DNA of 64,000 nt. Source: Tunturiibacter gelidiferens. GTDB lineage: Bacteria; Acidobacteriota; Terriglobia; Terriglobales; Acidobacteriaceae. Each line of letters opens with the position of its first letter. Positions within the stretch are counted from its first letter, which is position 1. The position numbers were made by a program, and so were the translations under genes. This document shows, piece by piece, positions 10,803 through 25,689 of this stretch. Under the pieces are notes generated by a model. That model saw only the letters and a list, made by a program, of their open reading frames with translations, searched no databases and was not told the origin of the DNA. The stretch is from NCBI RefSeq assembly GCF_013410115.1, contig NZ_JACCCV010000001.1:2170001-2234000 (forward strand), written 5' to 3'.

Positions 10803-11569
10803 TCAGCTTCCTCCAGGCCTGCATCCAGATCGGCATCTTCAAACAGAAGTTCAGCCGACATCGCTTGTTCCAGCTCAGCATCCGGATCGACCCCGCGCAC
10901 CGGCGCGAAGCTCCTCCTGTGTAGAGCACACGGCCCAATCTCAGCCAACGCCCGTCGATGCTCCGGCGTCCCGTATCCCTTATGCGAAGCCAGTCCGTAT
11001 CCCGGATGCACAGCGTCCAGTTCACGCATCAACGCATCACGATGCACCTTCGCAATCACCGAAGCGGCGGCAATCGAAAGGCTAAGCGCGTCGCCATAGA
11101 TCAGCTTCGTTTGCCGACAGGGATGATCGAGCCGCATCGCATCGATCAGCAAATGATCCGGCGCGAGCGTCAATCCCTTCACCGCAGCCAGCATTGCCAT
11201 CCGTGTAGCTTGGTAGATGTTCACCCGATCGATCGTCTCGGCGTCGACCTCTGCAACACAAAAAGCAAGTGCCATCCCGCGTATCTGCTGGTTGAGAGAC
11301 TCGCGCTCCTCCCGTGTCATCTGCTTGGAATCTTTCAATCCTGCGTTCGCCAACTCGTCGAGGCACTCCGGCAGAATCACCGCAGCCGCCACCACCGGCC
11401 CAAACAGCGCCCCACGCCCCACCTCATCCACCCCGGCGATTCGTTGAAAACCGTAATACCGCAGAGCCTGCTCTGGCGCATCGCTGCAAACAAGCATCTT
11501 CAACATGCGCTGCTTTGCGGTAGCAGCAGTCACCGTTCGGGGAGCACGAGTGGAGGGAGTCGAAGCCAT
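10793..11569 (-). CDS. rnhB: Ribonuclease HII
   Basis: Cleaves the RNA strand of RNA-DNA hybrids and removes misincorporated ribonucleotides. The 258-residue protein carries the family core AGVDEVGRGALFGPVVAAAV with catalytic Asp48 and Glu49, then GLKDSKQMT and the later LLIDAMRL and DALSLSIAAASVIAKVHRD segments holding the remaining acidic residues. It has an extended N-terminus (about 40 residues) and an acidic C-terminal tail (ELEQAMSAELLFEDADLDAG). Start chosen at the ATG beyond rplS; a second in-frame ATG lies 21 codons in. Part of the rplS-rnhB-deacetylase string. Confidence 0.95.
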   Translation of the reverse strand: MASTPSTRAPRTVTAATAKQRMLKMLVCSDAPEQALRYYGFQRIAGVDEVGRGALFGPVVAAAVILPECLDELANAGLKDSKQMTREERESLNQQIRGMALAFCVAEVDAETIDRVNIYQATRMAMLAAVKGLTLAPDHLLIDAMRLDHPCRQTKLIYGDALSLSIAAASVIAKVHRDALMRELDAVHPGYGLASHKGYGTPEHRRALAEIGPCALHRRSFAPVRGVDPDAELEQAMSAELLFEDADLDAGLEEAEWA

Positions 11570-11603
11570 GCCTTCAAGGTCGAGTGTAAACCCACCGCGC
11601 AAA

Positions 11604-11633
11604 ACTAAGCCACGACCGAAGTCGTGGCTTAGT
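11604..11633 (-). terminator. UUCG-tetraloop hairpin between rplS and rnhB
   Basis: A perfect 13-bp stem (ACTAAGCCACGAC with its complement) closes a four-base loop that reads UUCG on the minus-strand transcript, the extra-stable C(UUCG)G form. It is followed there by TTTTG. It lies 34 bases after the rplS stop and could partially terminate or protect the L19 message while allowing read-through to rnhB. Confidence 0.65.
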
Positions 11634-11666
11634 GTAAAGCTCAGTGGAAAACAGGGAACGAAATGC

Positions 11667-12026
11667 CTACTTGGCGGCGCGCTCAACCTCACGCAGACGA
11701 GCAGCCTTACCGCGCAGACCGCGCAGATAGAACAGCTTCGAACGGCGAACTTCGTAGGAGCGAACCTTCTCGACCTTGTCGACGACCTTGGAGTTGTACG
11801 GGAAGATGCGCTCGACGCCCTGACCGAAGCTCATCTTGCGAACAGTGAAAGATCCCTGCGCGCCCTTGCGGCAGGCAATGACCATGCCCTCGAACGCCTG
11901 CAGACGCTCTTTCTCGCCTTCACGAATCTTTACTTGAACTCGAACTGTGTCGCCGGGGGCGAACGCGGGTAAATCGGTCCGCTCTAACTTTGCGGCCAGC
12001 TTCTGCATAATCGGATGAATGGACAT
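11667..12026 (-). CDS. rplS: 50S ribosomal protein L19
   Basis: A 119-residue protein at the 30S-50S interface. It begins [20 protein letters not shown] and contains the invariant [50 protein letters not shown] and [18 protein letters not shown] blocks. Full length with no oddities. It follows trmD in the conserved order, but the 179-bp gap between them contains a dispersed repeat (12143-12200). Confidence 0.98.
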
Positions 12027-12142
12027 GACACAACTTTCCTATGTTGGACTCGACCTCCAGTGTACACGAAATCTCCGCAAAATGCCTCTAGAATCATCTC
12101 CTCCGCCCGGCGGGAGGGCCGCTTTTCTCAGTTCCCTCAACA

Positions 12143-12200
12143 GGATATACAAGTCACGAAGTGACCGCGCCACGCGTAGTAGGCCCGGCCGGCAGGCCAG
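12143..12200 (+). repeat. Hairpin-rich repeat family D, copy 2
   Basis: Contains GGATATACAAG, TCACGAAGTGA, CGCGTAGTAGGCCCG and GGCCGGCAGGCC, matching the copies at 1414 and 17451. It begins six bases after the trmD stop, in reverse orientation relative to trmD, inside the ribosomal cluster. Confidence 0.7.
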
Positions 12201-12205
12201 ATCCC

Positions 12206-13030
12206 TCAAAAAGATCCTGAATCGCCGCCCCGTAGCTCCGCCAGAATCTCGCGGTCTTCATCCGTAATCTCAATCCTCTCCAACAGGTCCGGACGGTTCT
12301 CCAGTGTTTTCTTCAGCGCCATCCTCCTCCTCCATCGTCGGATCACCTCATGATTGCCTCCAGACAGTGCCTCTGGAATCATTGTCCCCATAAAATCCGC
12401 TGGCCGCGTGTAGTGCGGGTAGTCCAGCAACCCTCCCGCTCCATAGGTTGACCGTGGTGGCCCACCCGCAGCGTCGGAAAGGTTCAAGACGTCCTCCGCG
12501 CCAAAACTTTCAAATCGCGATGAGTCAGGATTCCCCAGAGCCCCCGGCAGCAGTCGAACCACAGCGTCAACAATCACCGCCGCCGCTAACTCCCCGCCCG
12601 ACAAAACATAGTCGCCAATCGAAATCTCCCGGTCGCAGAGCAGTTCGTTAACCCGCTCATCGACACCCTCATATCTTCCGCACAAAATGACAACCCGTTC
12701 CGTTGTCGAAAGCTCCTGCGCCAGCGATTGAGTGAATGGCTGCCCCTGCGCCGACAACAGAATCACGGTCTCTCTGCTCCTGTCCCGTTCAGCCTTCGGA
12801 GAGACATTCAGTGATTGCACCGCATCGTAGATCGGCTGCGCCTTCAGCACCATGCCCTCGCCCCCGCCGAACGGCCGGTCGTCCACCGTTCGATGGCGAT
12901 CGTGCGTGAAGCTGCGCAGGTCATGTATTGCAATCTGCACCAGACCCGTAGTGCGAGCGCGCTTCAGAATCCCGTAATCGAAGGGCCCTGTAAAGAAATC
13001 GGGAAAGATCGTAATGATGTCAAAGCGCAT
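12206..13030 (-). CDS. trmD: tRNA (guanine-N1)-methyltransferase
   Basis: Methylates G37 of tRNAs with S-adenosylmethionine, preventing frameshifting. The 274-residue SPOUT enzyme begins MRFDIITIFPDFFTGPFDYG and shows HRTVDDRPFGGGEGMVLKAQP, the knot segment VILCGRYEGVDERV, IGDYVLSGGELAA, and the C-terminal YTRPADFMG and WRRRMALKKTLENRPDLL. The ATG at 13030 matches the family start. Cluster order rimM-trmD-rplS is kept, but an opposite-strand gene at 13208 separates it from rimM. Confidence 0.97.
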   Translation of the reverse strand: MRFDIITIFPDFFTGPFDYGILKRARTTGLVQIAIHDLRSFTHDRHRTVDDRPFGGGEGMVLKAQPIYDAVQSLNVSPKAERDRSRETVILLSAQGQPFTQSLAQELSTTERVVILCGRYEGVDERVNELLCDREISIGDYVLSGGELAAAVIVDAVVRLLPGALGNPDSSRFESFGAEDVLNLSDAAGGPPRSTYGAGGLLDYPHYTRPADFMGTMIPEALSGGNHEVIRRWRRRMALKKTLENRPDLLERIEITDEDREILAELRGGDSGSF

Positions 13031-13207
13031 AGACGATAAGAGCGGTACAGCCGCTCGTTTTTTGACTCCCAGGTTGCACCATATCACTTGGAAGTTGTGG
13101 AATCACGCGACTGATCTCAACGAAGATCTCATCGAGATGATCAGAGGACCTGGGCGCTTCTCCCGCCGTCTTTTCAGGTCATCGCGGCGAGCCGAAAGAG
13201 CATCCAT

Positions 13208-14098
13208 ATGCTTCAACGAAAACTCGCCGCTCTCCTGATCTTACTGCCGTCGTCTCTCAGCCTCACGGTTACAGCACAGCAACAGACGCCCTCGAATCCC
13301 GTTGCGCCCTCGCAACTCGCCCTGGCTCTGCCGGCAACGGCCAGCCTATCGACCGAAGAATTGCATAAGCCAGCCGTCAAATCCTCCAGCGCCGAAGGAG
13401 TCATCCGTATCACCCCTACACCCCAGCTCGAAAAAGAGCTCCCATCCCAAAGACCGTTCCGCACGGCAGCCTTTGGGATTAAAGCCAATACGTTAGGAGT
13501 CGGCGCAGAACTGGCTACGCCGCTCTTCGGCCGTTTCAATCTCCGCTCCGGCGTCAACTTCTTGGCCTTCGCCTACCCCTTTGGCATCGACGGCGTGAAC
13601 TACAACGCGAATCTCCACTTCAAATCCTCGCAGAGCACTCTCGATTGGTTCCCCGGTGGTCACGCCTTTCACATTAGCCCAGGCATTCTCTACTCCAAAA
13701 ACACAGTCTCCTCGACTGCGACGGTCCCTGCCGGCCAGAACTTCACCCTCGGTGACCAGAGCTTCATCAACAGCGTCGGCGATCCGGTCCACGGCAACAT
13801 GTCGCTCGCGTATCCACGCACTCTGTCCCCCATGCTTCTATTAGGCTTCGGTAACATCCTTCCCCGCAACAGCCGCCGCCTCTCCGTCCCCATGGAGTTC
13901 GGGGTCGCCTACACCGGCGCGGCCACCATCAACGTCAATCTCACCGGAACCGCCTGCACCAACGATGGTTGCACCAGCTTCGGCGGCAACTCCGAGGTCC
14001 AGGCCAGCCTCACGCAGGAGATTCACAAAATCAACGAAGACCTGAAGAAGGTCCCCGTCTATCCGATCCTCTCGTTAGGAGTGGCCTATCACTTCTAG
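13208..14098 (+). CDS. Exported protein, probable outer-membrane beta-barrel
   Basis: A 296-residue protein with a clear signal peptide (LAALLILLPSSLSLTVTAQ), a Pro/Thr linker, and a region of alternating short strands (FGIKANTLGVGAELATPLFG, LRSGVNFLAFAYPFGI, FHISPGILYSKN). It ends in LSLGVAYHF; a C-terminal aromatic residue after alternating hydrophobics is the usual barrel-assembly signal. The family is not recognised. It is placed on the opposite strand between rimM and trmD, breaking an otherwise conserved cluster, which suggests later insertion. Confidence 0.7.
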   Translation: MLQRKLAALLILLPSSLSLTVTAQQQTPSNPVAPSQLALALPATASLSTEELHKPAVKSSSAEGVIRITPTPQLEKELPSQRPFRTAAFGIKANTLGVGAELATPLFGRFNLRSGVNFLAFAYPFGIDGVNYNANLHFKSSQSTLDWFPGGHAFHISPGILYSKNTVSSTATVPAGQNFTLGDQSFINSVGDPVHGNMSLAYPRTLSPMLLLGFGNILPRNSRRLSVPMEFGVAYTGAATINVNLTGTACTNDGCTSFGGNSEVQASLTQEIHKINEDLKKVPVYPILSLGVAYHF

Positions 14099-14133
14099 CT
14101 CTCTGCTTTGAACTTTGCGCTGATGCTTCGAAC

Positions 14134-14739
14134 TTAGCTCTCGTCGCCCGAGCTTCGATTGACTTCGACTAAACCATCAGGCAGCTTCATCTCGATGCGT
14201 TTCGCCTCTGTATCCACCGCCAGTAAAAACGCCTTCGCAAACGGGATGAGAATCACATCCCCGGCGAGCGACCTCACCTCCAGCAGCGGTGCAGCGTCGG
14301 TCAGTCGGCGCGCCCCATCTGCGGTTGTAGCGAATTGAACATCTTCTACAACACCCACCGCCGTTGCTCGGTCATACACCGTACAGCCGATCAACTCGCT
14401 GATGTAGACCGAATCGTCATCTAACGGAAGCCGTTCCTCTCGAGGGACGAGCACGTCTAATCCGGCGACCGCCTCAGCATCCGAAATCGTCTCAATACCC
14501 GACAACTGCAGTACGACGCGTCCCTGGTTCTTCCCAACGGGCAGCCAGAACGCCACAACCTCTATAGCACGTGCCTCCGACTCCTCCCCTTCAAAGCCCG
14601 AGGGCGCGAGAAACACTCTCGTCTGCTCCTCAAACCGCTCGGGGAAGTCGGTAAACAGCTCCGCCAGAACCTCACCCTTGCGACCTTGCGGCCGAAGTAG
14701 ATGTGCCAACACAATCCAGGCTGGAGTAGTTTGCGTCAT
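14134..14739 (-). CDS. rimM: Ribosome maturation factor RimM
   Basis: Assists 30S head assembly and binds S19. The 201-residue protein has the N-terminal RimM barrel (LAHLLRPQGRKGEVLAELFTDFPERF), the middle VVLQLSGIETISDAEAVAGLDVLVP, and the C-terminal PRC-like domain (YISELIGCTVYDR through LIPFAKAFLLAVD). The ATG at 14739 is chosen; a TTG eight codons upstream is possible. It lies 54 bases after khpA in the rpsP cluster. Confidence 0.93.
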   Translation of the reverse strand: MTQTTPAWIVLAHLLRPQGRKGEVLAELFTDFPERFEEQTRVFLAPSGFEGEESEARAIEVVAFWLPVGKNQGRVVLQLSGIETISDAEAVAGLDVLVPREERLPLDDDSVYISELIGCTVYDRATAVGVVEDVQFATTADGARRLTDAAPLLEVRSLAGDVILIPFAKAFLLAVDTEAKRIEMKLPDGLVEVNRSSGDES

Positions 14740-14793
14740 AGAGCAAAATCTGAGGAGAAGCAAAAAACCAGATCCTGCAAGCTGCTCTGAGCT

Positions 14794-15093
14794 TTATGGT
14801 GCAGGGGGATGGTCCTCTTCAACGATGTCGAGCGAAAAGCGGTGTTTCAGCTTCATGCTGGCTGCGCTAAGAATCGTGCGCATGGAACGCGCTGTCCGTC
14901 CTTGCTTCCCGATCACTTTACCGACATCGCTGGCAGCGACCCGCAAGCGAATCGCGGTGCATTCGCCATCTTCTATGGCCTCGACCGAGACACTGTCCTG
15001 GTCGTCTACCAAGGCACGGGCTATCTCTGCTACAAGGTCTGTCATGTTCTTTACAGGGTTGTCCCCTGCAGGAAACTGGGTTGCCTGGGTCAT
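14794..15093 (-). CDS. khpA: KH-domain RNA-binding protein KhpA
   Basis: Small single-KH RNA-binding protein that partners with KhpB in other bacteria. The 99-residue product has MTDLVAEIARALVDDQDSV, an acidic linker, and the KH signature VGKVIGKQGRTARSMRTIL with the GxxG loop as GKQG. The ATG at 15093 has AGAAGG seven bases upstream. Upstream in-frame codons do not resemble the family. Usual position between rpsP and rimM. Confidence 0.93.
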   Translation of the reverse strand: MTQATQFPAGDNPVKNMTDLVAEIARALVDDQDSVSVEAIEDGECTAIRLRVAASDVGKVIGKQGRTARSMRTILSAASMKLKHRFSLDIVEEDHPPAP

Positions 15094-15328
15094 CACACAC
15101 CTTCTGGGTCTGGGAGTCACGGAGGAACGCTCAAGCTCTTTCCCTTTGTCTCGTCTACTGCGAGATCTTCCAGGAAGTGCTGCAACGAGCGATACACCGG
15201 TCGCAGGAAGTCCAGGGCAATAAACCCCGGGCCTTCTGCTTTGCAAGGCCACTGCAGTTCGACTGTGCAATACCAAGGAGTCTACGTGAAACGGTACCAG
15301 GACGTGCTTCAAGGAACCTATTGTGTCA

Positions 15329-15367
15329 GCTATCTTTGGGAACCATTACCTCATGCCCAAAGATAGC
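15329..15367 (-). promoter_or_regulatory. Hairpin between rpsP and khpA
   Basis: A 12-bp perfect inverted repeat (GCTATCTTTGGG with its complement) and a 15-base loop, 16 bases after the rpsP stop. No T-run follows on the minus strand, so it may stabilise the rpsP message or attenuate transcription rather than terminate it. The remaining 235 bases up to khpA show nothing recognisable, unusually long for neighbours in this cluster. Confidence 0.5.
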
Positions 15368-15382
15368 ATTGACCAGTAACTC

Positions 15383-15637
15383 CTAGGCTACCGCGACTGC
15401 CTCTGCAGGCTTCTGCGCCATCAGCTTACCCACGCGCTCAGACAACTGTGCTCCGTTTCCGGTCCAGTAGTCGATGCGGTCGCGCTTCAAATCAACCGTC
15501 GCAGGGTTGGTGCGCGGATTATACGTCCCCACTACTTCGACCGAACGGCCGTTACGGGCGCGGTCCTTCTCGATCACAACGATGCGGTAATGTGGCTGCT
15601 TACGCGCTCCAACGCGCGCCAAACGAATCATCAACAC
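15383..15637 (-). CDS. rpsP: 30S ribosomal protein S16
   Basis: An 84-residue ribosomal protein with the conserved MIRLARVGARKQPHYRIVV start, DRARNGRSVEVVGTYNPRT, and RIDYWTGNGAQLSERVGKLM. The start is taken as GTG at 15637 (giving MLMIRLARVG, the family N-terminus) because AAAGG lies eight bases upstream; a TTG at 15643 is also in frame. First gene of the minus-strand cluster. Confidence 0.96.
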   Translation of the reverse strand: MLMIRLARVGARKQPHYRIVVIEKDRARNGRSVEVVGTYNPRTNPATVDLKRDRIDYWTGNGAQLSERVGKLMAQKPAEAVAVA

Positions 15638-15780
15638 GGGCAATGCCTTTCAGAACATTATTGGTTTGGGTGACATAGCCGCGCTGTCGATCCTTCTCGG
15701 ACAGGGACTTTAGATACATTACCCAACATCTAAGTATGGCTGAAAACGCGCCTTTCCGCAACGAAGAAGCGCAAACTCTC

Positions 15781-16578
15781 TTACCCTGACGGAAAAAGAA
15801 ACCGCAGCACATCCCCAAAGCGCTTCGACCAGGCATTTTCATCGTGAACTGCTCCGTCAACCTTCTCATAGATAAGGTCTTTCCCGGGCCGCCAGCCCCG
15901 ATTCAGCAGCACGCGCTCCAGCATGTCCGTGTCTCGAACATGACGAACCCCCTCCGCCGTCCCTATATCCAGCCAGAGACGAAGCTCAGGCTTCGAGTCC
16001 GTTCGTTCGATCACCTGCAAAATGCTGCGCTGATCCCACCACAGCGATGGCGAAATGACCGCCAGCTTGCCGAACACCTCCGGGTACGAAAATCCCAAAT
16101 ACAGAGAGATCAGTCCGCCCAGCGACGACCCGCCCAGCCCGGTATTCTTTCCATCGGTCAAGGTCCGGTAGGAACGGTCAATCAGAGGTTTCAGCTCCTC
16201 GACCAGCAACCGCCCATACTTCCGTCCCTCTCCCCCGCCCATCTTCAAGTCACGCGTCGGCGTGTACTCTGCCATCCGGCGAAGTCCTGTATTTGCAACG
16301 CCTACCAGGATCACCGGCTCAATCTCCCCGTTCAGGCTCAGCTCGTCAGCCGTCGTATGCGCATTCCAGGTCCGCCCCGCGATGTACGACGTCCGCCCGT
16401 CAAACAAATTCTGACCATCGTGCAGATAAAAAACAGGGAAGCGCCGCTCCTCATCCTCCAGATACTGCGGTGGGAGATAGACCGAAATCATCCGGTCGTC
16501 CGGCAGAATCTCCGAATGAAACTTACGTACGCTATATCTCGGATTGGAATCCAGTTCGTCTGCGGTATGCTCTGTCAT
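15781..16578 (-). CDS. Putative esterase (esterase D/enterochelin-esterase fold)
   Basis: A 265-residue alpha/beta hydrolase. The nucleophile elbow is GSSLGG with Ser152. The preceding pattern FPVFYLHDGQNLFDGRTSY, WNAHTTADEL and ILVGVANTGLRRMAEYTP is typical of the esterase D superfamily, and the C-terminal VHDENAWSKRF supplies the histidine. No signal peptide from the ATG at 16578, which has GAAGAGG upstream. Divergent from a second esterase of the same superfamily at 16723, suggesting related substrates. Confidence 0.85.
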   Translation of the reverse strand: MTEHTADELDSNPRYSVRKFHSEILPDDRMISVYLPPQYLEDEERRFPVFYLHDGQNLFDGRTSYIAGRTWNAHTTADELSLNGEIEPVILVGVANTGLRRMAEYTPTRDLKMGGGEGRKYGRLLVEELKPLIDRSYRTLTDGKNTGLGGSSLGGLISLYLGFSYPEVFGKLAVISPSLWWDQRSILQVIERTDSKPELRLWLDIGTAEGVRHVRDTDMLERVLLNRGWRPGKDLIYEKVDGAVHDENAWSKRFGDVLRFLFPSG

Positions 16579-16722
16579 CGCCTCTTCGGGCAAACCGACG
16601 GACGCAAGCTCGCGCTCAAGTGGCTTAAGCGCAGAAATTGAATGAGATGGCGATGTTTGTTTCAATGCGAAAGAAGCTGCTCCAATAAACTACGATTGCA
16701 TCAGACTAGCAGAGGGAGCTCG

Positions 16723-17433
16723 ATGAAGCGCGAATACCACAAATGGTTCTCTCCCTCCCTCGGGCGCGATATGGAACTGCTCGTCTTCGGACACGCAGGG
16801 TATCCCGCCGTCGTCTTCCCCACCTCCCAGGGCCGCTTCTACGAGTTTGAAGATCGCCAGATGGTCAGCACCGTGCAAGACAAGCTCGAGCACGGCCACC
16901 TCCAGCTCTACTGCGTCGACTCGGTCGATGGCGAAAGCTGGTACAACCGCGACGTCCCACCCCGCTGGCGAATCGCCCGTCAGGCGCAGTACGGCAACTA
17001 CATCATGAATGAGGTCGTTCCCCTCATTCGCCAGATGAACCAGTACTCCGGCATCGGAACCATCGGCACCAGCTTCGGCGGCTACCACGCCTTGAACATC
17101 GCCCTCCGTCACCCCGACGTCTTCACCGGCATGCTCTCCATGAGCGGAGCCTTCGACCCATCCCACTTTCTCCGCGGCTACTACGACGACGACTGCTACT
17201 TCAACATCCCCATGCACTACCTCCCCAACATCGGCGACCCTTGGTATCTCGACCGTTACCGCCGTAATAACTACGTTCTCGCAACCGGCGTCCACGACCA
17301 GTGCTGGAACGAGAACGAACGCATGGCGCAGATCTTCCGCGCAAAAAACATCCCCTGCCGCCTCGATGTCTGGGGCGACAACACAGGCCACGACTGGCCC
17401 TGGTGGCAGAGAATGCTGCAGACCTATCTCTAA
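16723..17433 (+). CDS. Cytosolic esterase-family hydrolase linked to peptide ligases
   Basis: A 236-residue alpha/beta hydrolase starting MKREYHKWFSPSLGRDMELL after AGAGGGAG. The nucleophile elbow GTSFGG has Ser117; VHDQCWNENER and NTGHDWPWWQRML near the end fit the acid and histidine regions. No signal peptide. It lies upstream of an ATP-grasp gene and a YbdK-type ligase on the same strand, so it may release, transfer or edit the product made by those ligases. That role is inferred from context only. Confidence 0.82.
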   Translation: MKREYHKWFSPSLGRDMELLVFGHAGYPAVVFPTSQGRFYEFEDRQMVSTVQDKLEHGHLQLYCVDSVDGESWYNRDVPPRWRIARQAQYGNYIMNEVVPLIRQMNQYSGIGTIGTSFGGYHALNIALRHPDVFTGMLSMSGAFDPSHFLRGYYDDDCYFNIPMHYLPNIGDPWYLDRYRRNNYVLATGVHDQCWNENERMAQIFRAKNIPCRLDVWGDNTGHDWPWWQRMLQTYL

Positions 17434-17450
17434 AGCCAGGCCTTGATCCC

Positions 17451-17547
17451 GACCAACGGGAGGAACCAAGCATCAAAACAATCAAGACCGGTATACACGT
17501 CACGAAGTGACCGCCCCACGCGCAGTGGGCCCGTCCGGCAGGACATT
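17451..17547 (+). repeat. Hairpin-rich repeat family D, copy 3
   Basis: Begins 18 bases after the esterase stop with GACCAACGGGAGG, then GGTATACACG, TCACGAAGTGA, CCCCACGCGCAGTGGGC and GTCCGGCAGGAC. It sits between the esterase and the ATP-grasp gene and might uncouple their expression. Confidence 0.75.
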
Positions 17548-17606
17548 GCAGGAGAAACGACTCGAGCCGCACCCTAACCAAACCCAAAACCCGTATGGAG
17601 GATTCA

Positions 17607-18620
17607 GTGAAGAAGATCGGTGTTCTGTTCGGAATGGAAAATACCTTTCCCGGCGCATTAGTCGATCGCATCAACGCGATGGAGATCGAAGGCATTCACG
17701 CGGAGTTCGTCTGCGTAGGCGGCGTTCGAATGGCCGCGCCCTCGGGCTACGCCGTTATCCTCGACCGCATCTCGCACGACATGCCCTTCTACCGTTCGTT
17801 CCTCAAAAACGCGGCTCTCAGCGGCACACAGATCATTAACAATCCCTTCTGGTGGTCCGCCGACGACAAGTTCTTCAACTACGCCCTCGCCTCAAAACTA
17901 GGCGTAGCCGTCCCTAAGACTGTTCTCCTTCCGCACAAAAAATTTCCACCACAGATCAACGAGCGCTCCCTACGCAACCTGCAGTTTCCTCTCGACTGGG
18001 ATGGCATCTTCGACTACGTAGGCTTCCCGGCCTTCCTCAAACCGCACGACGGCGGCGGATGGCGCGATGTCTTCCACGTCCACAATCGCGACGAGTTCTT
18101 CTATGCCTACGATCAGACCCGCGACCTCTGCATGACCCTCCAGGCTGCGGTCAACTTCAAGGAGTACTTCCGCTGCTACGTCGTCGGTCAAACTGACGTC
18201 CGCATCATGCCCTACGATCCGCGCCGCCCACACGAGCACCGCTACGTCCTCGACCCACCGGAGTACGACAAGAACCTCCTCAAGCGCGTCGAGAAAGACG
18301 CCCTCACCCTCTGCAAAGCCCTCGGCTACGACCTCAACACCGTCGAGTTCGCCGTAGAAGACGGCATCCCCTACGCCATCGACTTCATGAACCCCGCACC
18401 TGACGCCGACCTTCACGCCGTCGGCAAGGAGAGCTTCGACTGGATCGTCGACAAGGTCGCGAAACTAGCTGTAAAAAAGGCGCAATCCTCCGCCAAAGTG
18501 AAAACGGAGATGAACTGGTCCGCGTTCCTCGCCCCCTCGAGGAAAAAAGAGATATCTAAATCAAGCGCCAAATCTGCACCAAAAAAAGCGGTGAAGAAGA
18601 AAACAAAAAAAGAGGAATAG
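17607..18620 (+). CDS. ATP-grasp domain ligase
   Basis: A 337-residue protein of the ATP-dependent carboxylate-amine/thiol ligase fold. Visible elements are FGMENTFPGALVDRIN at the N-terminus, the nucleotide-binding lysine segment FPAFLKPHDGGGWRDVF, and the metal-binding end VEFAVEDGIPYAIDFMNPAPDADL. The C-terminal 40 residues are a lysine-rich tail (KKAVKKKTKKEE) outside the fold. The start is taken as GTG at 17607 because GGAGG lies six bases upstream; an ATG four codons earlier has none. Substrates unknown. The neighbouring GCS2-type ligase suggests successive peptide-bond formation. Confidence 0.85.
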   Translation: MKKIGVLFGMENTFPGALVDRINAMEIEGIHAEFVCVGGVRMAAPSGYAVILDRISHDMPFYRSFLKNAALSGTQIINNPFWWSADDKFFNYALASKLGVAVPKTVLLPHKKFPPQINERSLRNLQFPLDWDGIFDYVGFPAFLKPHDGGGWRDVFHVHNRDEFFYAYDQTRDLCMTLQAAVNFKEYFRCYVVGQTDVRIMPYDPRRPHEHRYVLDPPEYDKNLLKRVEKDALTLCKALGYDLNTVEFAVEDGIPYAIDFMNPAPDADLHAVGKESFDWIVDKVAKLAVKKAQSSAKVKTEMNWSAFLAPSRKKEISKSSAKSAPKKAVKKKTKKEE

Positions 18621-18665
18621 CTACAACAAAAAAAAGAATAACCACTACTGGCGCTCCTCAAGAAT

Positions 18666-18775
18666 CGTCATCTCGACCGTAGCAGTTGGACAGTTTTGTT
18701 TTTGCCGTTGCCCGTTCTTTTGTTGTCATTCCGCAGCGCAGCGAAGGAATCTGCTGTTGTGCTTGCCTTTGCTTT
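18666..18775 (+). repeat. Composite dispersed repeat (A and B fragments), copy 3
   Basis: Starts with CGTCATCTCGACCG, passes through a GCC/GTT-rich spacer and ends with GTCATTCCGCAGCGCAGC and GGAATCTGCTGTTGT, matching the tail of the element at 3340-3560. It lies just upstream of the carboxylate-amine ligase gene. Confidence 0.7.
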
Positions 18776-18832
18776 TCCACCACCCTTGCTTCAAGTGGTA
18801 CGCTTCTGACTCAATTGAAAGACGGAGAGCAT

Positions 18833-19936
18833 ATGCGGCCATCGTTTACGCTAGGCATCGAAGAGGAATACCAGACAGTCGACCCCGAAACACGCGACCT
18901 GCGCTCCCACATCGCGACCGAGATGCTCGCCAAGGGCAAGCTTCGTCTCGAAGAGCGCGTCAAGGCCGAGATGCATCAATCCGTCATCGAAGTAGGCACC
19001 CGCATCTGCAGCAACATTCAGGTAGCGCAAGAGGATCTCTTCGATCTCCGCCGCAACATGATCGCCCTCGCCGAAGAGCATGACCTCCTCCTCATCGCCG
19101 GCGCAACCCATCCCTTCGCCGACTGGCGCGTTCAGGAGATCTACCCCGACCCTCGCTACGCCCAGGTCGTCGAAGACCTCCAACTCGTAGCCCGCGCCAA
19201 CCTCATCTTCGGCCTCCACGTTCACGTCGGCATCGAAGACCGCGAAGCCGCCATCCGCATCATGAACTCGCTCCGCTACTTCCTCCCCCACATCCTCGCC
19301 CTCTCCACCAACTCCCCCTTCTGGCTCGGCATGGAGACCGGCTACAAGAGCTACCGCGCCAAGGTCTTCGAAAACTTTCCCCGTACTAACCTCCCCGACA
19401 GCTTCGCCAGCTACTCGGAGTTTGAGAGCTACGTAAACCTACTCATCAAAACCAACTCCATCGACAACGCCAAAAAAATCTGGTGGGACGTCCGCCCACA
19501 CCCCTTCTTCGACACCGTTGAGGTCCGCATCTGCGACATCCCCCTCCGCGCGCACGAGTCCATCGCCATCGCCGCGCTCATCCAGGCCACCGCCTGCAAG
19601 CTCTGGCACCTCCACTCCCGCAACATCGACTATCGTCAGTACTCCCGCGCCCTCCTCATGGAGAACAAGTTCCGCGCCGTCCGCTACGGCCTCGACGGCA
19701 AGATGATCGACTTCGGTAAACAGGCCGAGGTCCCCGTCCGCGAGCTCATCCTCGAATATCTCGCCTTCGTCGATGACGTCCTCGACGAACTAGGCAGCCG
19801 CACCGAGATCAACTACATCCACACCATGCTCCGCGAAGGCTCAGGAGCCGACCGCCAGCTAAAAGCCTTCCGCGAAACCGGGAACCTGAAATCCGTAGTC
19901 GACTACATGGCCGCCGAGACCCGCGCCGGCCTCTAA
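18833..19936 (+). CDS. ybdK: Carboxylate-amine ligase of the GCS2/YbdK family
   Basis: ATP-dependent ligase related to plant/proteobacterial glutamate-cysteine ligase 2. The 367-residue protein starts MRPSFTLGIEEEYQTVDPE, with the acidic IEEE motif of the active site, and has RICSNIQVAQEDLFDLRR, FGLHVHVGIEDRE, WWDVRPHPFFDTVEVRICD and RALLMENKFRAVRYGLDG. E. coli YbdK has only weak glutamate-cysteine ligase activity, so the natural substrates are open. The ATG has GGAGA upstream. Same strand as the ATP-grasp gene, 212 bases downstream with a repeat in between. Confidence 0.92.
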   Translation: MRPSFTLGIEEEYQTVDPETRDLRSHIATEMLAKGKLRLEERVKAEMHQSVIEVGTRICSNIQVAQEDLFDLRRNMIALAEEHDLLLIAGATHPFADWRVQEIYPDPRYAQVVEDLQLVARANLIFGLHVHVGIEDREAAIRIMNSLRYFLPHILALSTNSPFWLGMETGYKSYRAKVFENFPRTNLPDSFASYSEFESYVNLLIKTNSIDNAKKIWWDVRPHPFFDTVEVRICDIPLRAHESIAIAALIQATACKLWHLHSRNIDYRQYSRALLMENKFRAVRYGLDGKMIDFGKQAEVPVRELILEYLAFVDDVLDELGSRTEINYIHTMLREGSGADRQLKAFRETGNLKSVVDYMAAETRAGL

Positions 19937-19945
19937 GATAAGAAA

Positions 19946-21103
19946 CTACCCACGCTTACGGAATCGGGAACCTGAGAAGATGCGGATATCCGTTGAAGTC
20001 TCTCGTGTCATTGCGAGGTCGCAAAGAATCTCTCCTACTACGGAAGAAAATTTGAAACCATGACCGGAGAATCCGGCAGCAAGGCTCACCTGCGGATAAT
20101 TGGGGTGCGTATCGATAATAAAGTGTTCGTCAGGCGTCATCGTATACATGCAGGTCGCCGTGTGAGAGATCTCCCCGTTGAGCGCGGGAATTCTAGTCCC
20201 GATAGCAGACCTGATTGCTGATGCATCACGCGGATGGATGCGCCGATCAATTGTCGACGGAGTGCATGTCTCATTACCAGAATGAATCCCCACCTTTGGG
20301 CTCCCATTTTCGCTTATTCGCGGAAGGCCATAGAACAACGGAGATCCCTCAGGCTCCCACAGGAAGATCGGGAACACTCCACGATCAAAGTTGGAAGATT
20401 CGTAAAGAGGCTTAAGCCAGAACAGCACCCTGCGCGAGACGACGACCGGCATCGCAACGTCTGGTAACAGCTCCGCGAACCACGGACCAACAGAAATCAC
20501 CAGCGATCTGGCATGGTAAGTCTGCTTTTCTGTCGTAACGCTTATACCGTCACCCTCTTGAGAAGCCGTCCACGAAAGCACTGGTTCTTCGAAACGAAGA
20601 TCTGCACCGCGCCTGGATGCACCGCGTAGATGCTGTCGGATACATTCCTCGGGCTTGAGGTAGCCTGCCTTCTCTTCGTAGAAAGCGACTTCGTCCTCTG
20701 TCAGGGCAAACTGCGGAAAGCGACGGCGCATCTCTTTGGCGTCGAATAGGTCGTGTCCGAGACCGTACTTTGTCGCGCTTCTCAAGCAGCCCGTCACCAG
20801 CGTTCCTTTGGTCGGTCCAATAGCAACGCCACCAGTGATGGTCAAGAGGTTCTCGTTGCTTTCCTCTTGCAACTGGTCCCAAAGCTCATATGCCCGTAGA
20901 ACGAGCGGAACATAGGCAGGGTCTTCGAAGTACGCCTGCCGGATAATGCGCGACTCCCCTTGCGACGACCCCTTATCATGAGCGGGAGTAAAGGCCTCCA
21001 GCCCCAACACCTTTGCGCCTCGCTTAGATAGTTGGTATGCCGTGGCGCTTCCCATAGCGCCGAGGCCGACGACGATAACGTCAAATGTGCTTTCCAGCGT
21101 CAC
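19946..21103 (-). CDS. FAD-dependent N-methyl amino acid oxidase (SolA/sarcosine oxidase family)
   Basis: A 385-residue flavoenzyme with the dinucleotide fold VIVVGLGAMGSATAYQLSKRG at residues 9-29 and the covalent-flavin cysteine in ATCMYTMTPDEHF (Cys318), matching monomeric sarcosine oxidase and N-methyltryptophan oxidase. It oxidises N-methyl amino acids to the amino acid, formaldehyde and hydrogen peroxide. Start is a GTG, with GGAGG immediately before it. It converges on the YbdK gene nine bases away; a shared pathway is possible but unproven. Confidence 0.9.
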   Translation of the reverse strand: MTLESTFDVIVVGLGAMGSATAYQLSKRGAKVLGLEAFTPAHDKGSSQGESRIIRQAYFEDPAYVPLVLRAYELWDQLQEESNENLLTITGGVAIGPTKGTLVTGCLRSATKYGLGHDLFDAKEMRRRFPQFALTEDEVAFYEEKAGYLKPEECIRQHLRGASRRGADLRFEEPVLSWTASQEGDGISVTTEKQTYHARSLVISVGPWFAELLPDVAMPVVVSRRVLFWLKPLYESSNFDRGVFPIFLWEPEGSPLFYGLPRISENGSPKVGIHSGNETCTPSTIDRRIHPRDASAIRSAIGTRIPALNGEISHTATCMYTMTPDEHFIIDTHPNYPQVSLAAGFSGHGFKFSSVVGEILCDLAMTRETSTDIRIFSGSRFRKRG

Positions 21104-21204
21104 CCTCCACGGTGCAACAGTTCAAGGATTAAGGGACCAAAGTCTCCTTCTCTAACGATATGTGGTTAGGAGGATCTTTTGCAGGAGCGTTTCCTTTTGG
21201 ACAA

Positions 21205-21287
21205 ACCTGTCAAGCCCTAAAATCGCAAATCACCGCGCCAGACAAGCAGATTCGCATGGCACAATACCCCACCAAACCCAATATAAT
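21205..21287 (+). promoter_or_regulatory. Promoter-like repeated module, copy 2
   Basis: ACCTGTCAAGCCC at 21205, AGCAGATTCGCATGGC in the middle and a consensus TATAAT at 21282-21287, in the same arrangement as 5041-5124. No good -35 hexamer is placed 17 bases upstream, so an unusual recognition mode is possible. Only about 40 bases separate the TATAAT from the terminator at 21308. Confidence 0.5.
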
Positions 21288-21307
21288 TAAAACAGGACCA
21301 AAGAGTG

Positions 21308-21336
21308 CCCCGACCCAGTGTCGGGGTTTTCGTTTT
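21308..21336 (+). terminator. Intrinsic terminator without an upstream gene
   Basis: A 7-bp GC stem (CCCCGAC with GTCGGGG, loop CCAGT) is followed by TTTTCGTTTTCT on the plus strand. The nearest gene to the left is on the minus strand, so this ends either a very short transcript from the TATAAT at 21282 or a leader of the aminopeptidase gene at 21584. The rest of 21337-21583 has a G-rich block at 21459-21493 also seen at 5260-5302. Confidence 0.7.
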
Positions 21337-21583
21337 CTACAGGCCAATGAAATGAGGACTTTACAGACAGTAATCGAAAGAAGCATCTGTCTTTTCAAGA
21401 CTTTGCTTCTAAGTCAATCTAAGTCAAAAAGGAAGTCCAAACCTAAGCCTCAAAGATGGAAGACTTTAGCGCCAAAGTGCCGGGGAGGGGGAGCAGTAGA
21501 TACCCTCTCAAACTCCTTTTTCTCCTGTAACTCCTCAGTAACAAGCTATCTTAGAAAGAAGTTTTATTCGGAAGGCCGCACCC

Positions 21584-22642
21584 ATGGTTGATCAAGCAAC
21601 GCAGGCAGCACCAGACCTCCGCACCACCGCCTTCCCCCCTGAGTTCACCCCCGGTGCTCGCAACGCCGTCACTACCTGCCTGCGCATCCAACCCAACGAG
21701 AAGGTCACCCTCATCACCGACGAGCGCTGCCTCACCATCGCCGCCTCCCTCGTCGCGGAGCTAGACCAGATCGGCTGCACCTGGAACGCCTTCGTCCTCG
21801 AAGCTCTCGCCCCACGCCCCCTTACCGATCTGCCTTCAGCCATCCTCGAAGACATGGAGTCCTCGCAGGTCAGCATCTTTGCCGTCGAAGTCCAGCCCAA
21901 CGAACTCCACAGTCGTATGCAGATGACCGACGTCGTCAATCGCCGCCGCATGCGCCACGCCCACATGGTCAACATCACCCCCGAGATCATGACCCAGGGT
22001 ATGCGCGCCGACTTCCTCGCTATCGACCGGCTCTCCCAGGCCGTCCTCGACAAGGTCCGCGCCGCCACTTACGTCCGCGCCACCACCCCCGCCGGCACCG
22101 ACATTCACGCCCAGCTCAACCCCGACTATCGCTGGTTCAAAACCTCAGGCATCATCAGCACCGAGAAGTGGGGCAACCTCCCCGGCGGCGAATGCTTCAC
22201 CGCTCCCGGTGAGGTCAACGGCGTCTTCGTCGTCGACGGCGTCGTAGGCGACTTCCTCTGCGCTCGCTACGGCATCCTCCGCGCCCATCCCCTCACGATC
22301 AACATCGAAGGCAATCGGATCACTCGTGCCTCCAGCGAGAACAAAGCCCTCGAGCGCGATTTTTGGGCCTACACCCACACCGACGAAAACTCCGACCGAG
22401 TGGGCGAGTTTGCCATCGGCACCAACATCGGCGTCGACCGCGTCATCGGCAACATCCTTCAGGACGAAAAATTCCCCGGCATCCACATCGCCTTCGGCGA
22501 CCCGTACGGCGCCCACACCGGCGCCCCCTGGAAGTCCTCCACCCACATCGACGTAGTAGGCCTCGAGTTCAGCATCTGGCTTGGCGACGCGCAGGGTGAA
22601 GAGCAGATCATGCGCGACGGCCAGTTTCTACTCGACGCCTGA
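21584..22642 (+). CDS. M29-type aminopeptidase (AmpS/aminopeptidase T-like)
   Basis: A 352-residue metallopeptidase-like protein. The C-terminal half has the family pattern: WGNLPGGECFTAPGEVNG, VGEFAIGTNIG, PGIHIAFGDPYGAHTG and STHIDVVGLEF, which carry the glutamate, histidine and aspartate metal ligands of the M29 fold. The N-terminal half is the usual alpha/beta domain. No signal peptide. Members remove N-terminal residues from peptides; with the ligases upstream it might trim or turn over a specialised peptide, but it may equally be general. Confidence 0.82.
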   Translation: MVDQATQAAPDLRTTAFPPEFTPGARNAVTTCLRIQPNEKVTLITDERCLTIAASLVAELDQIGCTWNAFVLEALAPRPLTDLPSAILEDMESSQVSIFAVEVQPNELHSRMQMTDVVNRRRMRHAHMVNITPEIMTQGMRADFLAIDRLSQAVLDKVRAATYVRATTPAGTDIHAQLNPDYRWFKTSGIISTEKWGNLPGGECFTAPGEVNGVFVVDGVVGDFLCARYGILRAHPLTINIEGNRITRASSENKALERDFWAYTHTDENSDRVGEFAIGTNIGVDRVIGNILQDEKFPGIHIAFGDPYGAHTGAPWKSSTHIDVVGLEFSIWLGDAQGEEQIMRDGQFLLDA

Positions 22643-22693
22643 GCGGGCTGTACTGAAGGAGTCCGGTCCGCGTTACAGTGCTCCGCGATAACC

Positions 22694-23398
22694 TCAGTGC
22701 GAATCAGTCGTCGTCTTACTGTCAGTCTTTATCTGATAAGGCTTGGTATCTACACCCTGGTTGTATCTGATGTTGGCGTAGACGGCAGTTCGATAGTCAT
22801 CGGACGGCATGTAGAAGCTTTGTTTCAGAGTAATGCCGCGGACAGGGTCTACCCAGATCGTCATATGCGTGCAATTGTTGCGGACAGACGGATCCTTCGG
22901 CACCAGATCCAGCTTAGCGGTCTGCACTCCGTTCAGCATCTCATCCCCTAGATCTGAGATTGCCCATGCTTTGGCCATCTCTCTGCCACTGCCACCGAAG
23001 CCAAGCGTGAGAAAGCTCTCCATCTGAGCCTGGTTCCCCTTAGGAGTAATGATGGTCTCGTGGTCGGTGCCAGGGTCAAACAGAGTCAGAATCCCGTTGC
23101 GGTATTCAAGAACCTTGATCGAGGGAGACGCAACCTTGGCTCCCATGACGGTCTTCACGCCTTCCTTCTTGAAGTAAATGGTGCCCTTCTGCGTGGTCGT
23201 CTGCTGCACAACCTTCTCGTAGAGGTCCCACTGAAAATCCGCCTCAGCCGACTGGAACTTCAGGCTCGCCGCGTCCATCTGACGAAGCACTTCATCCAGG
23301 TGGCCAGGCTTCGGCTGCGCAACACCAAAAACTGTGGCGAGACCTGAAACAACAGATGACAGGAAAAGTGATGCAACGATACGACGGAATGTGGTCAT
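22694..23398 (-). CDS. LolA-like outer-membrane lipoprotein-sorting protein
   Basis: A 234-residue exported protein with a signal peptide (SLFLSSVVSGLATVFGVAQ) and the LolA-like half-barrel pattern: LDEVLRQMDAASLKFQSAEADF, GTIYFKKEGVKTVMG and a C-terminal VDPVRGITLKQSFYMPSDDYR. The fold carries lipid or lipoproteins in the periplasm; sequence of this type in acidobacteria is usually an uncharacterised paralog rather than LolA itself. The ATG has AGGAG upstream. It follows the 126-residue gene by 43 bases. Confidence 0.75.
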   Translation of the reverse strand: MTTFRRIVASLFLSSVVSGLATVFGVAQPKPGHLDEVLRQMDAASLKFQSAEADFQWDLYEKVVQQTTTQKGTIYFKKEGVKTVMGAKVASPSIKVLEYRNGILTLFDPGTDHETIITPKGNQAQMESFLTLGFGGSGREMAKAWAISDLGDEMLNGVQTAKLDLVPKDPSVRNNCTHMTIWVDPVRGITLKQSFYMPSDDYRTAVYANIRYNQGVDTKPYQIKTDSKTTTDSH

Positions 23399-23441
23399 AA
23401 CTCAGGTGCTCCTGGAAGTTGGATGCATTATGTGTCAGAAG

Positions 23442-23822
23442 TTAACGAAGCACCCAGGCGTTGTAGGCGATGATCTTCCCCTGTGCGTCGTGGACGGCCT
23501 CGTACCGCTGGATCGATACCTCGCCAGATATCGGTTCGATCACGCGCAAGATCGCGGCGCGGCGCTCGAGGTCAGTGCTAGCGCCGCTCATATCATCAGC
23601 GCGAACCTGGTAGATGAAGCGGCTGCTTCCGCCGGAGGTCCCAGCTTCTCGGACCAGCACCTCGCTCGCATGGAGAGCGATCGTCTCAACGGGTTTGTCC
23701 TTGAAGTCAATCAAGCGGGGCGAGACAAACATGAAGACGAGAATGGCTGTCACCATGACGTCATAGTGGAAGCTGCCTCGCTCGTAGGCCCAGAAGATGT
23801 AGCTGCGGATCAGTTTGAACAT
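23442..23822 (-). CDS. Small membrane protein downstream of serS
   Basis: A 126-residue protein, not recognised. It has one N-terminal hydrophobic helix (VMVTAILVFMFVSPRLI) after FWAYERGSFHYD and a soluble C-terminal domain. It starts five bases after the serS stop with AGGAG nine bases upstream of the ATG, so it is very probably cotranscribed with serS and the LolA-like gene. Confidence 0.75.
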   Translation of the reverse strand: MFKLIRSYIFWAYERGSFHYDVMVTAILVFMFVSPRLIDFKDKPVETIALHASEVLVREAGTSGGSSRFIYQVRADDMSGASTDLERRAAILRVIEPISGEVSIQRYEAVHDAQGKIIAYNAWVLR

Positions 23823-23827
23823 GGTTG

Positions 23828-25156
23828 TTAGCTCCTGCCTTGCTGCTTGCCGATGACTGTATCGCCGTTCATATACGGAACTAACACGGATGGGATCTTT
23901 ATCGTTCCGTCAGCCTGCTGGTAGTTCTCCAGAATCGCAAGATAGGTGCGGCCTACGGCTAGTCCGCTGCCATTCAGGGTGTGAAGAAACTCACTCTTCT
24001 TTGCTTGGGCCGGGCGGTAACGGATATTTGCCCTACGAGCTTGGAAGGACTCAAAGTTGGAGCAGGACGATATCTCGCGATAGAGCTGTTGACCGGGCAA
24101 CCACACCTCGAGATCGTAGGTTTTAGCAGCAGAAAAGCCCATGTCGCCCGTGCAGAGCAGCATTCGCCGATAAGGGAGGCCGAGACGCTCAAGCACGGTC
24201 TCGGCGTGACGCGTGAGACGTTCATGCTCAGCGTTGGAGTCTTCGGGGCGTACAAATTTGACCAACTCGACCTTCTGGAACTGATGCTGGCGGATCATGC
24301 CACGAACATCCTTTCCGTAAGAGCCTGCCTCGGACCGGAAACAAGGGGTGTAGGCGCAGAAGGATATTGGAAGCTGCGATTCTTCGAGCGTCTCATCGCG
24401 GAATAGATTCGTGACTGGAACCTCAGCAGTAGGGATGAGCCAATGATCGTTCTCCTGGTAAACACCGGTCTGGTAGGAACCCTTGTCGTCGCAATGGAAG
24501 CTATCTTCGGCAAACTTCGGCAGCTGGCCCGTGCCAAAGAGGGACTTAGAGTTGACCATATACGGTGGAAGGACTTCGGTATAGCCGTGCTCGCCAGTGT
24601 GAAGGTCAATCATGAAGTTGGCGAGGGCGCGTTCGAGCCGTGCTCCTTGGCCGAAGTGGACAACAAAGCGCGAGCCTGAGATTTTGGCCGCGCGACCAAA
24701 ATCGAGGATGCCCAGCGCTTCGCCGAGGTCCCAATGAGGTTTTGCGGGGAAGTCGAAGACCGTTTGCTCGCCCCAGACCTTCTCCTGTCGGTTGTCGTCC
24801 GCCGATTTGCCGATGGGTACGCTGTCCTGCGGCAGATTGGGGAGGGCTTGCAATATCTCTTTCAATCGCTCGTCGGCAATTGCTGCGGAGTACTCAAGCG
24901 ACTCTGCTTCAGACTTCAGGGCGCGTGTCTGATCGGACTGTGAGGTTGCATCTACTCCTTCACGTTTGAGCTTTGCGATCTCTTCCGTTAACCTGTTTCT
25001 CTGGGCCTTGAGCGTCTCCACTCGAGTGATAGCCTCTCGCCTCTCGCGATCGACTTCGACGAAGTTACCCAGTGCAAGTTCGGGATCTATTCCCCGATTA
25101 CGCAACTTCTCTTTCACAAGGGCCAAATTAGCCCGAACAAATGCAAGATCAATCAT
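23828..25156 (-). CDS. serS: Seryl-tRNA synthetase
   Basis: Class II aminoacyl-tRNA synthetase charging tRNA-Ser. The 442-residue protein starts [20 protein letters not shown] and has the N-terminal coiled-coil arm ([18 protein letters not shown]), motif 2 [33 protein letters not shown] and motif 3 [18 protein letters not shown]. Full length. ATG at 25156 used; a GTG directly upstream is in frame. First gene of a three-gene string. Confidence 0.98.
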
Positions 25157-25625
25157 CACGTTACATTTTAGCGTCTTCCCGCTGGAACACGGACCAGCGA
25201 TGTCTTGCCATACTCGCCCTTTACCTTCAGTTGACTACGAAAGTCGATTTTTTCCGGTTATCTCGGCTCCCCGGCTGCACGCTCACGTAAAGCTGAAGTT
25301 GGTTATCGATCAGTTTCGAGCCGGCTACCTCGGATCGCACGGGTTCAGTCTTGTGCTGAAACGAGCATCTACTTCAACTCTTGCCAGCTTTAACTATGCC
25401 AATACCAAGACAGCACGGGACACGACACCACTGGAACGGGTTATACAGACAGACGGCAGGGCATCGCAGTCAGGAGTGATGAGATTTGATCCGCAACCTC
25501 CTACCTACGACCCAAATGAGCGAAGAAGATTCGCTTCGGCCGTGACAAGTAAAAGGGCTAACGGGCCGCGGGATTGAGTCCTAGAATGAATGAATTAGTG
25601 AATCGAGTGGCTATCCACTTGACGG

Positions 25626-25643
25626 ACTGAATGGTCATTCAGT
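25626..25643. promoter_or_regulatory. FadR/TetR-type palindromic operator upstream of the fad genes
   Basis: ACTGAATGGTCATTCAGT is an 18-base palindrome with 8-base arms and a GT centre, 46 bases before the fadN-like ATG. TGAATG...CATTCA arms are those of the Bacillus FadR (TetR family) operator, though there the arms are further apart. A degenerate half-site (TGAATGAATTAGTGAATC) lies at 25588-25605. The rest of 25157-25625 holds no recognisable gene. Confidence 0.6.
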
Positions 25644-25689
25644 ATGCTTCGCATCGTTCGGGTATTCCTGCCCGCCGGAGCCTTTGACC

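Follow-up and report, generated by a model that had tools for sequence, protein, structure and literature searches.

What does a bacterium make with two unlike amide-forming ligases encoded beside two esterases and a peptidase-like protein? This question is raised by a locus of Tunturiibacter gelidiferens (Acidobacteriaceae) that lies in the 64,000-nucleotide stretch analysed here (hereafter the window; G000:C1:2170001-2234000, part of a 5.3-Mb genome), and it bears on the YbdK-type ligases, for which we know of no settled physiological role. On balance, we favour the view that the locus forms the main part of an accessory operon for the biosynthesis of a small pseudopeptide, assembled in three ATP-dependent ligations of a carboxylate to an amine. 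The genes of the set are conserved and inherited together, mostly share one strand in linked cases, and encode three kinds of ligase: an ATP-grasp ligase of the D-Ala-D-Ala ligase (Ddl)/RimK type, a GCS2 ligase and an ATP-grasp ligase with the fold of glutathione synthetase and glutathionylspermidine synthetase (GspS). The third is not encoded in the window's locus. The six open reading frames named in the initial annotation were all confirmed and are as follows.

15781..16665, minus strand: EstA, alpha/beta-hydrolase esterase (PF00756, 110 bits), divergent from EstB
16723..17433, plus strand: EstB, esterase-family hydrolase of 236 residues (PF00756, 49 bits), first gene of the plus-strand unit
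17595..18620, plus strand: AGr, predicted ATP-grasp carboxylate-amine ligase with a D-Ala-D-Ala-ligase/RimK-like fold and a Lys-rich C-terminal tail
18833..19936, plus strand: YbdK, GCS2-type carboxylate-amine ligase (PRK13515 equivalog) with the GhExE motif
19946..21103, minus strand: SolA, flavin oxidase (PRK11259, 459 bits; cut-off 257)
21584..22642, plus strand: M29, M29-type metallo-aminopeptidase-like protein (PF02073, 50.2 bits; cut-off 27)

The neighbourhood check called for by the initial annotation found EstB, AGr, YbdK, M29 and EstA to be neighbours in related genomes, the arrangement recurring in the mapped loci. In total, 140 loci were mapped: 80 from a genome_contigs scan with an AGr alignment, which are the best of 590 relatives and therefore lean towards close relatives, and 60 from the phylum, picked by hand to represent 59 of the 87 AGr-matching genomes (two loci come from G026); AGr proper is present in 53 of these 60 loci. 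The locus maps behind the neighbour counts were built on tblastn, codon-trained gene calling still keeping some antisense reading frames. The recurring order is EstA divergent from EstB-AGr-YbdK-M29-AG2, where AG2, a ligase of about 400 residues absent from the window's locus, is often encoded by the last gene of the operon. Acidobacteriota and Opitutia show this order, as do Ignavibacteria and Bacteroidetes, M29 being usually missing in the latter two. On the same strand as AGr and at most 5 kb away, the genome_contigs loci hold EstB in 50 of 80 cases, YbdK in 62, M29 in 45 and AG2 in 42, and EstA lies within the same distance on either strand in 21; as many contigs are short, these linkage counts are lower bounds. 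Among the 23 loci titled neither Acidobacteriota nor Rhodanobacteraceae (that is, titled Ignavibacteria/Chlorobiota/Kapaibacterium, Bacteroidetes groups, Opitutia groups or Cloacimonetes), EstB is present in 11, YbdK in 17, M29 in 5, AG2 in 16 and EstA in 5, the sole Cloacimonetes locus (L155) reading AGr-YbdK-AG2 with no EstB. Furthermore, match-end distances are short or negative in many loci, for instance -4 bp between YbdK and M29 (L122, L133) and -4 bp between M29 and AG2 (L141). A contiguous example is the operon of Bryocella elongata DSM 22489 (L092), with EstB at 9167-9880, AGr at 9995-11020, YbdK as the following gene, M29 at 12364-13398 and AG2 at 13535-14752.

The association of EstB, AGr, YbdK, M29 and AG2 far exceeds a chance neighbourhood. 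That these are unrelated genes lying together by accident is hardly credible given how the order recurs in several phyla and given the presence pattern described below. Such an explanation does hold for the upstream genes at 10793-15312 (RNase HII, rplS, trmD, rimM and neighbours, named by eye), which are housekeeping genes with the synteny ordinary for the family, and for SolA. The latter had been counted as a member of the locus; it is found near the cluster in 1 of the 140 mapped loci, the window's own (L051), and was rejected as a part of the pathway.

Co-inheritance was examined in 297 genomes of the phylum, for the cluster proteins and for a further protein, CPAG, which in other families sits between AGr and YbdK (L040-L044, L074, L168) in loci where AG2 is mostly absent; in L082-L085, CPAG follows AGr and no YbdK is nearby. 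Its Pfam matches are to circularly permuted ATP-grasp families (PF04174, 27.1 bits for a cut-off of 23.1; PF14403, 29.8 bits, just under the cut-off of 32). The search yielded matches for AGr (87), EstB (115), YbdK (99), AG2 (39), M29 (84, mostly weak) and CPAG (76), and presence was scored from cut-offs of at least 246 bits for AGr, 377 for YbdK, 123 for EstB, 414 for AG2, 257 for M29 and 235 for CPAG. Left out of the presence sets were 10 distant AGr relatives (106-130 bits, handled separately as a far branch), YbdK paralogues of at most 236 bits and fragments (G151, G134, G266), EstB matches below 123 bits (G052: 90), AG2 fragments (G213, G132, G134), CPAG matches of at most 189 bits (among them one of 37 bits in the window genome) and M29 matches of at most 127 bits.

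Both AGr and YbdK are present in 65 of the 297 genomes, and 64 of these 65 also have AG2 (33) or CPAG (36), 5 having both. The lone exception, G145, carries its cluster at a contig end (the contig has 33737 bases and M29 ends at 33617). AG2 or CPAG is found in 0 of the 24 genomes with YbdK but no AGr, in 7 of the 12 with AGr but no YbdK and in 3 of the 196 with neither, and EstB is present in 73 of the 77 genomes with AGr. This presence pattern suggests that CPAG may replace AG2 functionally. The co-occurrence of AG2 or CPAG with AGr and YbdK points to a pathway of three ligases, with esterases and a metallopeptidase in addition. Thus, the two-step ligation pathway put forward in the initial annotation stands as regards a coherent amide-bond locus and has to be extended by one step, since a third ligase, AG2 or CPAG, belongs to it.

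The pattern is sharpest close to the window. Within its genus (15 genomes), 7 genomes combine a strong EstA match with EstB, AGr, YbdK, M29 and AG2, 4 are limited to EstB and AGr, and 4 have none; AG2 is present in 7 of the 7 genomes with YbdK and in 0 of the 8 without, these 8 also lacking M29 and having EstA matches below 40 bits. The 16 other genomes of the family comprise 8 with the full set (EstA identity going down to 40% in some), 2 with EstB only and 6 with nothing over the cut-offs. EstA matches of at least 138 bits occur in 15 of the 31 family genomes, the same 15 that have the full set, the other 16 having at most 43 bits. EstB, AGr, YbdK, M29 and EstA are in this way gained and lost together in the window's family, in line with their grouping in the initial annotation. 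In addition, EstB, AGr, YbdK and AG2 have correlated pairwise distances, with r 0.79-0.87 (31 loci; permutation maximum 0.34).

In the window genome, AG2 is encoded at C1:2557765-2558970, about 0.37 Mb away, and is 65% identical to the copy that a genus mate carries in its operon. It is likewise distant or on a separate contig in G094, G103, G155 and G163, and in G241 YbdK, M29 and AG2 form a separate block about 35 kb from EstB-AGr. The operon has thus been broken up in the window's lineage, with the gene set retained. The all-or-nothing pattern within one genus, together with an unlinked AG2, is hard to explain without joint function.

What, then, are the three ligases? YbdK is a full-length GCS2 protein well over the family cut-offs (PF04107, 214 bits for 21; TIGR02050, 308 for 176; PRK13515, 523 for 371) and scores 276 bits, below the cut-off of 425, against the equivalog PRK13516. 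E. coli YbdK (1r8g) belongs to the same family (E 6e-56), the YbdK family of TIGR02050. The GhExE signature is present as GIEEE at residues 8-12 and conserved in at least 97% of 58 sequences; it is given as the ATP/Mg signature of GCS2 enzymes in an excerpt of PMC2588565.

AGr has no Pfam match at E 0.01 and matches the RimK family TIGR00768 weakly (22.4 bits, below the cut-off of 143.4). Its model, with a predicted local distance difference test score (pLDDT) of 85, resembles D-Ala-D-Ala-type ligases in a VIA comparison with Z of about 13-14 (Ddl up to 14.3), and RimK and LysX with about 12.5; these matches span residues 86-304, so that the first 85 residues are barely tested by them. K149, E251, D263 and N266, which we take to be the catalytic Lys, Glu, Asp and Asn of the ATP-grasp superfamily, are invariant in 51 sequences. 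By modelled fold and catalytic residue set, AGr is thus a probable ATP-grasp enzyme. Its closest titled relatives among the matches listed are from Acidobacteriaceae.

The divergent EstA/EstB pair and the Lys-rich tail of AGr are as described in the initial annotation, which regarded the tail as an oddity; the tail is indeed there, and it recurs in the AGr family rather than being a one-off. At least 15 residues past a conserved Trp motif are found in 47 of the 77 homologues measured (of 80 loci), and Lys and Arg make up at least 20% of the tail in 41 of those 47, both in Acidobacteriota and in loci whose titles name Bacteroidetes, Ignavibacteria or Cloacimonetes. Among homologues, the tail differs widely in how long it is and in its sequence, and the model gives it low confidence (residues 314-337 have pLDDT below 50). 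It may serve solubility, nucleic-acid or membrane contact, or as an acceptor arm. One could imagine a peptide-tagging system in which AGr (RimK/TTL-like) and YbdK (related to PafA, the Pup ligase) add amino acids to a protein, perhaps to AGr's own Lys-rich tail, and M29 and the esterases detach the tag. The RimK match of the AGr model, the Lys- and Arg-rich tail in 41 of the 77 homologues from several phyla and the proposal that PafA derives from a GCS2 precursor (PMC2588565, in excerpt) agree with it. We nevertheless regard tagging as unlikely: Ddl, which ligates free dipeptides, fits AGr slightly better than RimK does, the tail is highly variable, and a screen of reading frames of at least 90 residues present in at least 5 loci gave no conserved acceptor-like family outside Acidobacteriota.

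AG2 gave no Pfam match over the cut-off in the three members scanned, and its profile A3 no match at E 1 to PDB sequences. Its model, built on the Bryocella copy (L092) and not on the window genome's own (pLDDT 94), and also compared by Foldseek, has a fold match over its full length, about residues 1-405. Z is 26.4 for YgiC/YjfC (root-mean-square deviation 3.4-3.7, 344-347 residues aligned), 25.1 for human glutathione synthetase (3.7, 376 aligned), 24.8 for GspS and 22.3 for Cp1B (9cjn). The lead of YgiC over glutathione synthetase being small, the fold is compatible with an amino-acid as well as a polyamine acceptor and does not decide between them. Searches of PDB sequences with CPAG and M29 gave no match at the limits used (M29: E 0.01).

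This fold also brings in the idea of a glutathione-like redox thiol, in which YbdK would make gamma-Glu-Cys and AG2 would add the third residue, as GshA and a eukaryotic-type glutathione synthetase do. Besides the match of AG2 to human glutathione synthetase, it draws on a gamma-Glu:Cys ligase activity with which E. coli YbdK is credited in the title of a cited paper, and on GshB (PF02955), which is over the cut-off in 0 of the 31 family genomes (1 weak match; 8 of 14 genomes in a control). BshC, of bacillithiol synthesis, is on the contrary over the cut-off in 31 of these 31 genomes, 16 of which are without the full set, so that the cluster is not the cell's main thiol pathway. Since the idea also leaves AGr, EstB and EstA unexplained, we hold it to be quite unlikely. 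The canonical glutathione pathway was itself rejected for this family, GshB not being over the cut-off and BshC being universal in the 31 genomes.

The hydrolases accompany the ligases with conserved residues of their own. The match of M29 to PF02073 is limited to profile positions 205-406 of 406, the C-terminal half. E203, E275, H301, H321 and D323, presumably the two-metal ligands Glu, Glu, His, His and Asp, are at least 97% conserved in 44 sequences. In the esterases, for which the catalytic Ser and His were assigned by GxSxGG and His positions, the EstB nucleophile S117 is present in 80 of 84 homologues and H223 in 82 of 84, and for EstA S181 is present in 22 of 23 and H274 in 20 of 23, the rest being gaps.

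EstB adjoins AGr also in loci without YbdK (L056-L058, L070). A far branch of AGr (L047-L050, L071-L073), with about 28% identity and a longer C-terminus, lies with S51-peptidase-like and enterochelin-esterase-like proteins, EstB being directly next in three loci (L049, L071, L072); its neighbourhood is a sister system. The persistence of the EstB-AGr pair alone and in this branch suggests that its reaction may be an independent core or a first step, with YbdK and the third ligase as later additions. The same loci could be read as favouring degradation or salvage, in which the set would hydrolyse compounds with ester or amide linkages and the ligases would be recycling enzymes: of all pairs, the one kept most widely consists of a ligase and a hydrolase, and two esterases and a peptidase-like protein belong to the set. 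The genes that cross phyla, however, include three ligases and EstB, and M29 and EstA are the members most often missing, which makes salvage very unlikely in our view.

Stepwise synthesis of a pseudopeptide is the simplest reading of three ligases kept together with a peptidase-like protein and esterases. As to the product, the best reading is a small pseudopeptide of the gamma-glutamyl type, perhaps with an amine cap. Enzymes of the GCS2 type phosphorylate a carboxylate, which is usually that of the Glu side chain (gamma), and join it to an amine (PMC2588565, in excerpt), and ATP-grasp enzymes likewise use acyl phosphates (excerpts of PMC6920838 and PMC12568646). In the proposed scheme, YbdK would form a gamma-glutamyl or similar side-chain amide, AGr would attach a second residue via an acyl phosphate, and the free carboxylate would be capped by AG2 or CPAG with an amine, either an amino acid (compare glutathione) or a polyamine (compare glutathionylspermidine). 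M29 might trim or recycle the product, and EstB and EstA might remove or transfer an ester or acyl group. This scheme is provisional as to the sequence of reactions, the building blocks used, the nature of the cap and what EstA, EstB and M29 do.

Several observations weigh against a three-ligation pathway. Linkage is looser in the 53 hand-chosen phylum loci with AGr, where EstB is within 5 kb in 29, YbdK in 31, M29 in 13 and AG2 in 14 (CPAG in 12 and EstA in 9). M29 is over the cut-off in 22 of the 297 genomes and absent from most genomes with AGr and YbdK outside the window's family, and EstB and AGr are kept without the rest in some genomes (4 of 15 in the genus), which suggests that AGr may act without the other ligases. 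The Ser nucleophile is lost in 4 of the 84 EstB homologues (L146, L150, L152, L086), still beside AGr, a hint of a non-hydrolytic role there. Common descent exaggerates both the distance correlations and the Fisher values. Finally, the AG2 model is near-equal to polyamine ligases and to glutathione synthetase, and fold similarity does not give the substrates of the ligases.

A bolder version goes further: a so far unrecognised, multi-phylum pathway of three unlike ligases would yield a new class of gamma-glutamyl pseudopeptide, probably polyamine-capped and thus similar to glutathionylspermidine without glutathione, the orphan YbdK family would thereby gain a physiological role, and the Lys-rich tail of AGr might be a tether or acceptor arm. 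We consider this version possible but doubtful.

How does the cluster compare with known systems? It belongs with a known kind, in which stand-alone amidoligases are clustered, and the evidence that its genes function jointly is good. Iyer et al. in 2009 reportedly predicted amidoligase gene neighbourhoods in which ATP-grasp and GCS-like ligases occur with peptidases, the same kind of system. A literature search by title and abstract opening, covering top-ranked results with the Iyer et al. survey and most subscription papers outside it, returned no paper describing the cluster. Glutathione synthesis (a GCS2 first ligase with a eukaryotic-type synthetase) and GspS resemble it in combining a GCS2 ligase with an ATP-grasp ligase of the glutathione synthetase/GspS fold and differ in that AGr, the esterases and M29 are in the operon here, with an AG2 that has no PDB-sequence or Pfam match. 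YgiC/YjfC of E. coli are the closest to AG2 in fold, but with 12-14% identity; they 'possess peptide-spermidine ligase activity' according to the title of Pederick et al., as cited in PMC12568646. The tripartite pathway to E-64-type compounds, as far as described in an excerpt of PMC12568646, shares the assembly of a pseudopeptide by successive stand-alone ligases without non-ribosomal peptide synthetases, one of them (Cp1B) with the glutathione synthetase fold; it is fungal and combines an ATP-grasp ligase, an amide bond synthetase and an oxygenase-made epoxide, whereas the partners here are GCS2 and Ddl-like ligases. The CDC123-type ATP-grasp clade (PMC4431377, in excerpt) was also considered and has no bearing on the cluster.

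The orphan YbdK now has a co-inherited context in several phyla, which includes two more ligases, both of which gave no Pfam match. An orphan-enzyme question is thereby turned into a testable pathway that names the genes to co-express, including AG2, which is invisible in a window-sized view, and the cluster points to a small amide metabolite, probably a new one.

Additional neighbours were seen in some loci. A protein of about 340 residues, class-I amidotransferase-like by eye and with no Pfam match in the one member scanned, lies between YbdK and AG2 in one branch (L031, L036, L045, L090). In a coarse screen with antisense reading frames included, families present in at least 5 of the 140 loci were nearly all confined to Acidobacteriota, two having one locus outside (one of them aldo/keto reductase-like by eye). 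A search for AGr relatives in the plasmid collection gave no match. A contig titled Rhodanobacteraceae (L104:9262-14787) carries the whole operon with 61-86% identity to the Acidobacteriaceae queries; it is probably mis-binned, or otherwise reflects a recent transfer.

Concerning the genes of the window themselves, the likely starts of EstB and YbdK are 16723, where the alignment of EstB relatives begins, and 18833. AGr may start at GTG 17607, which has GGAGG 5 bases before it, the consensus of relatives opening with MKKIG. The start of EstA is either TTG 16665 or ATG 16578, the alignment beginning at residue 1 in genus mates and at residues 26-46 in more distant relatives. Between 16400 and 22800, a promoter scan returned 0 sigma-70-type sites (1.8 in shuffles) and 11 terminator-like sites were found against 6.7 in shuffles (standard deviation 2.5); an Rfam search of 10000-26000 gave no match. 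M29 is directly 3' of YbdK in many relatives, and in the window the two are separated by SolA and, at 21307, by a hairpin resembling a terminator. The hairpins between SolA and M29 lie at 21295-21328, the best one on the plus strand with 8 pairs, and suggest that M29 may be transcribed separately in the window genome. Lastly, the gap between AGr and YbdK holds an imperfect short palindromic repeat, TCATTCCG...CGAAGGAATCTG, at 18726-18753, found again at 3506-3533; with 37 copies in the genome at no more than 1 mismatch and 0 in a reversed control, it looks like a repetitive extragenic palindromic (REP)-type element.

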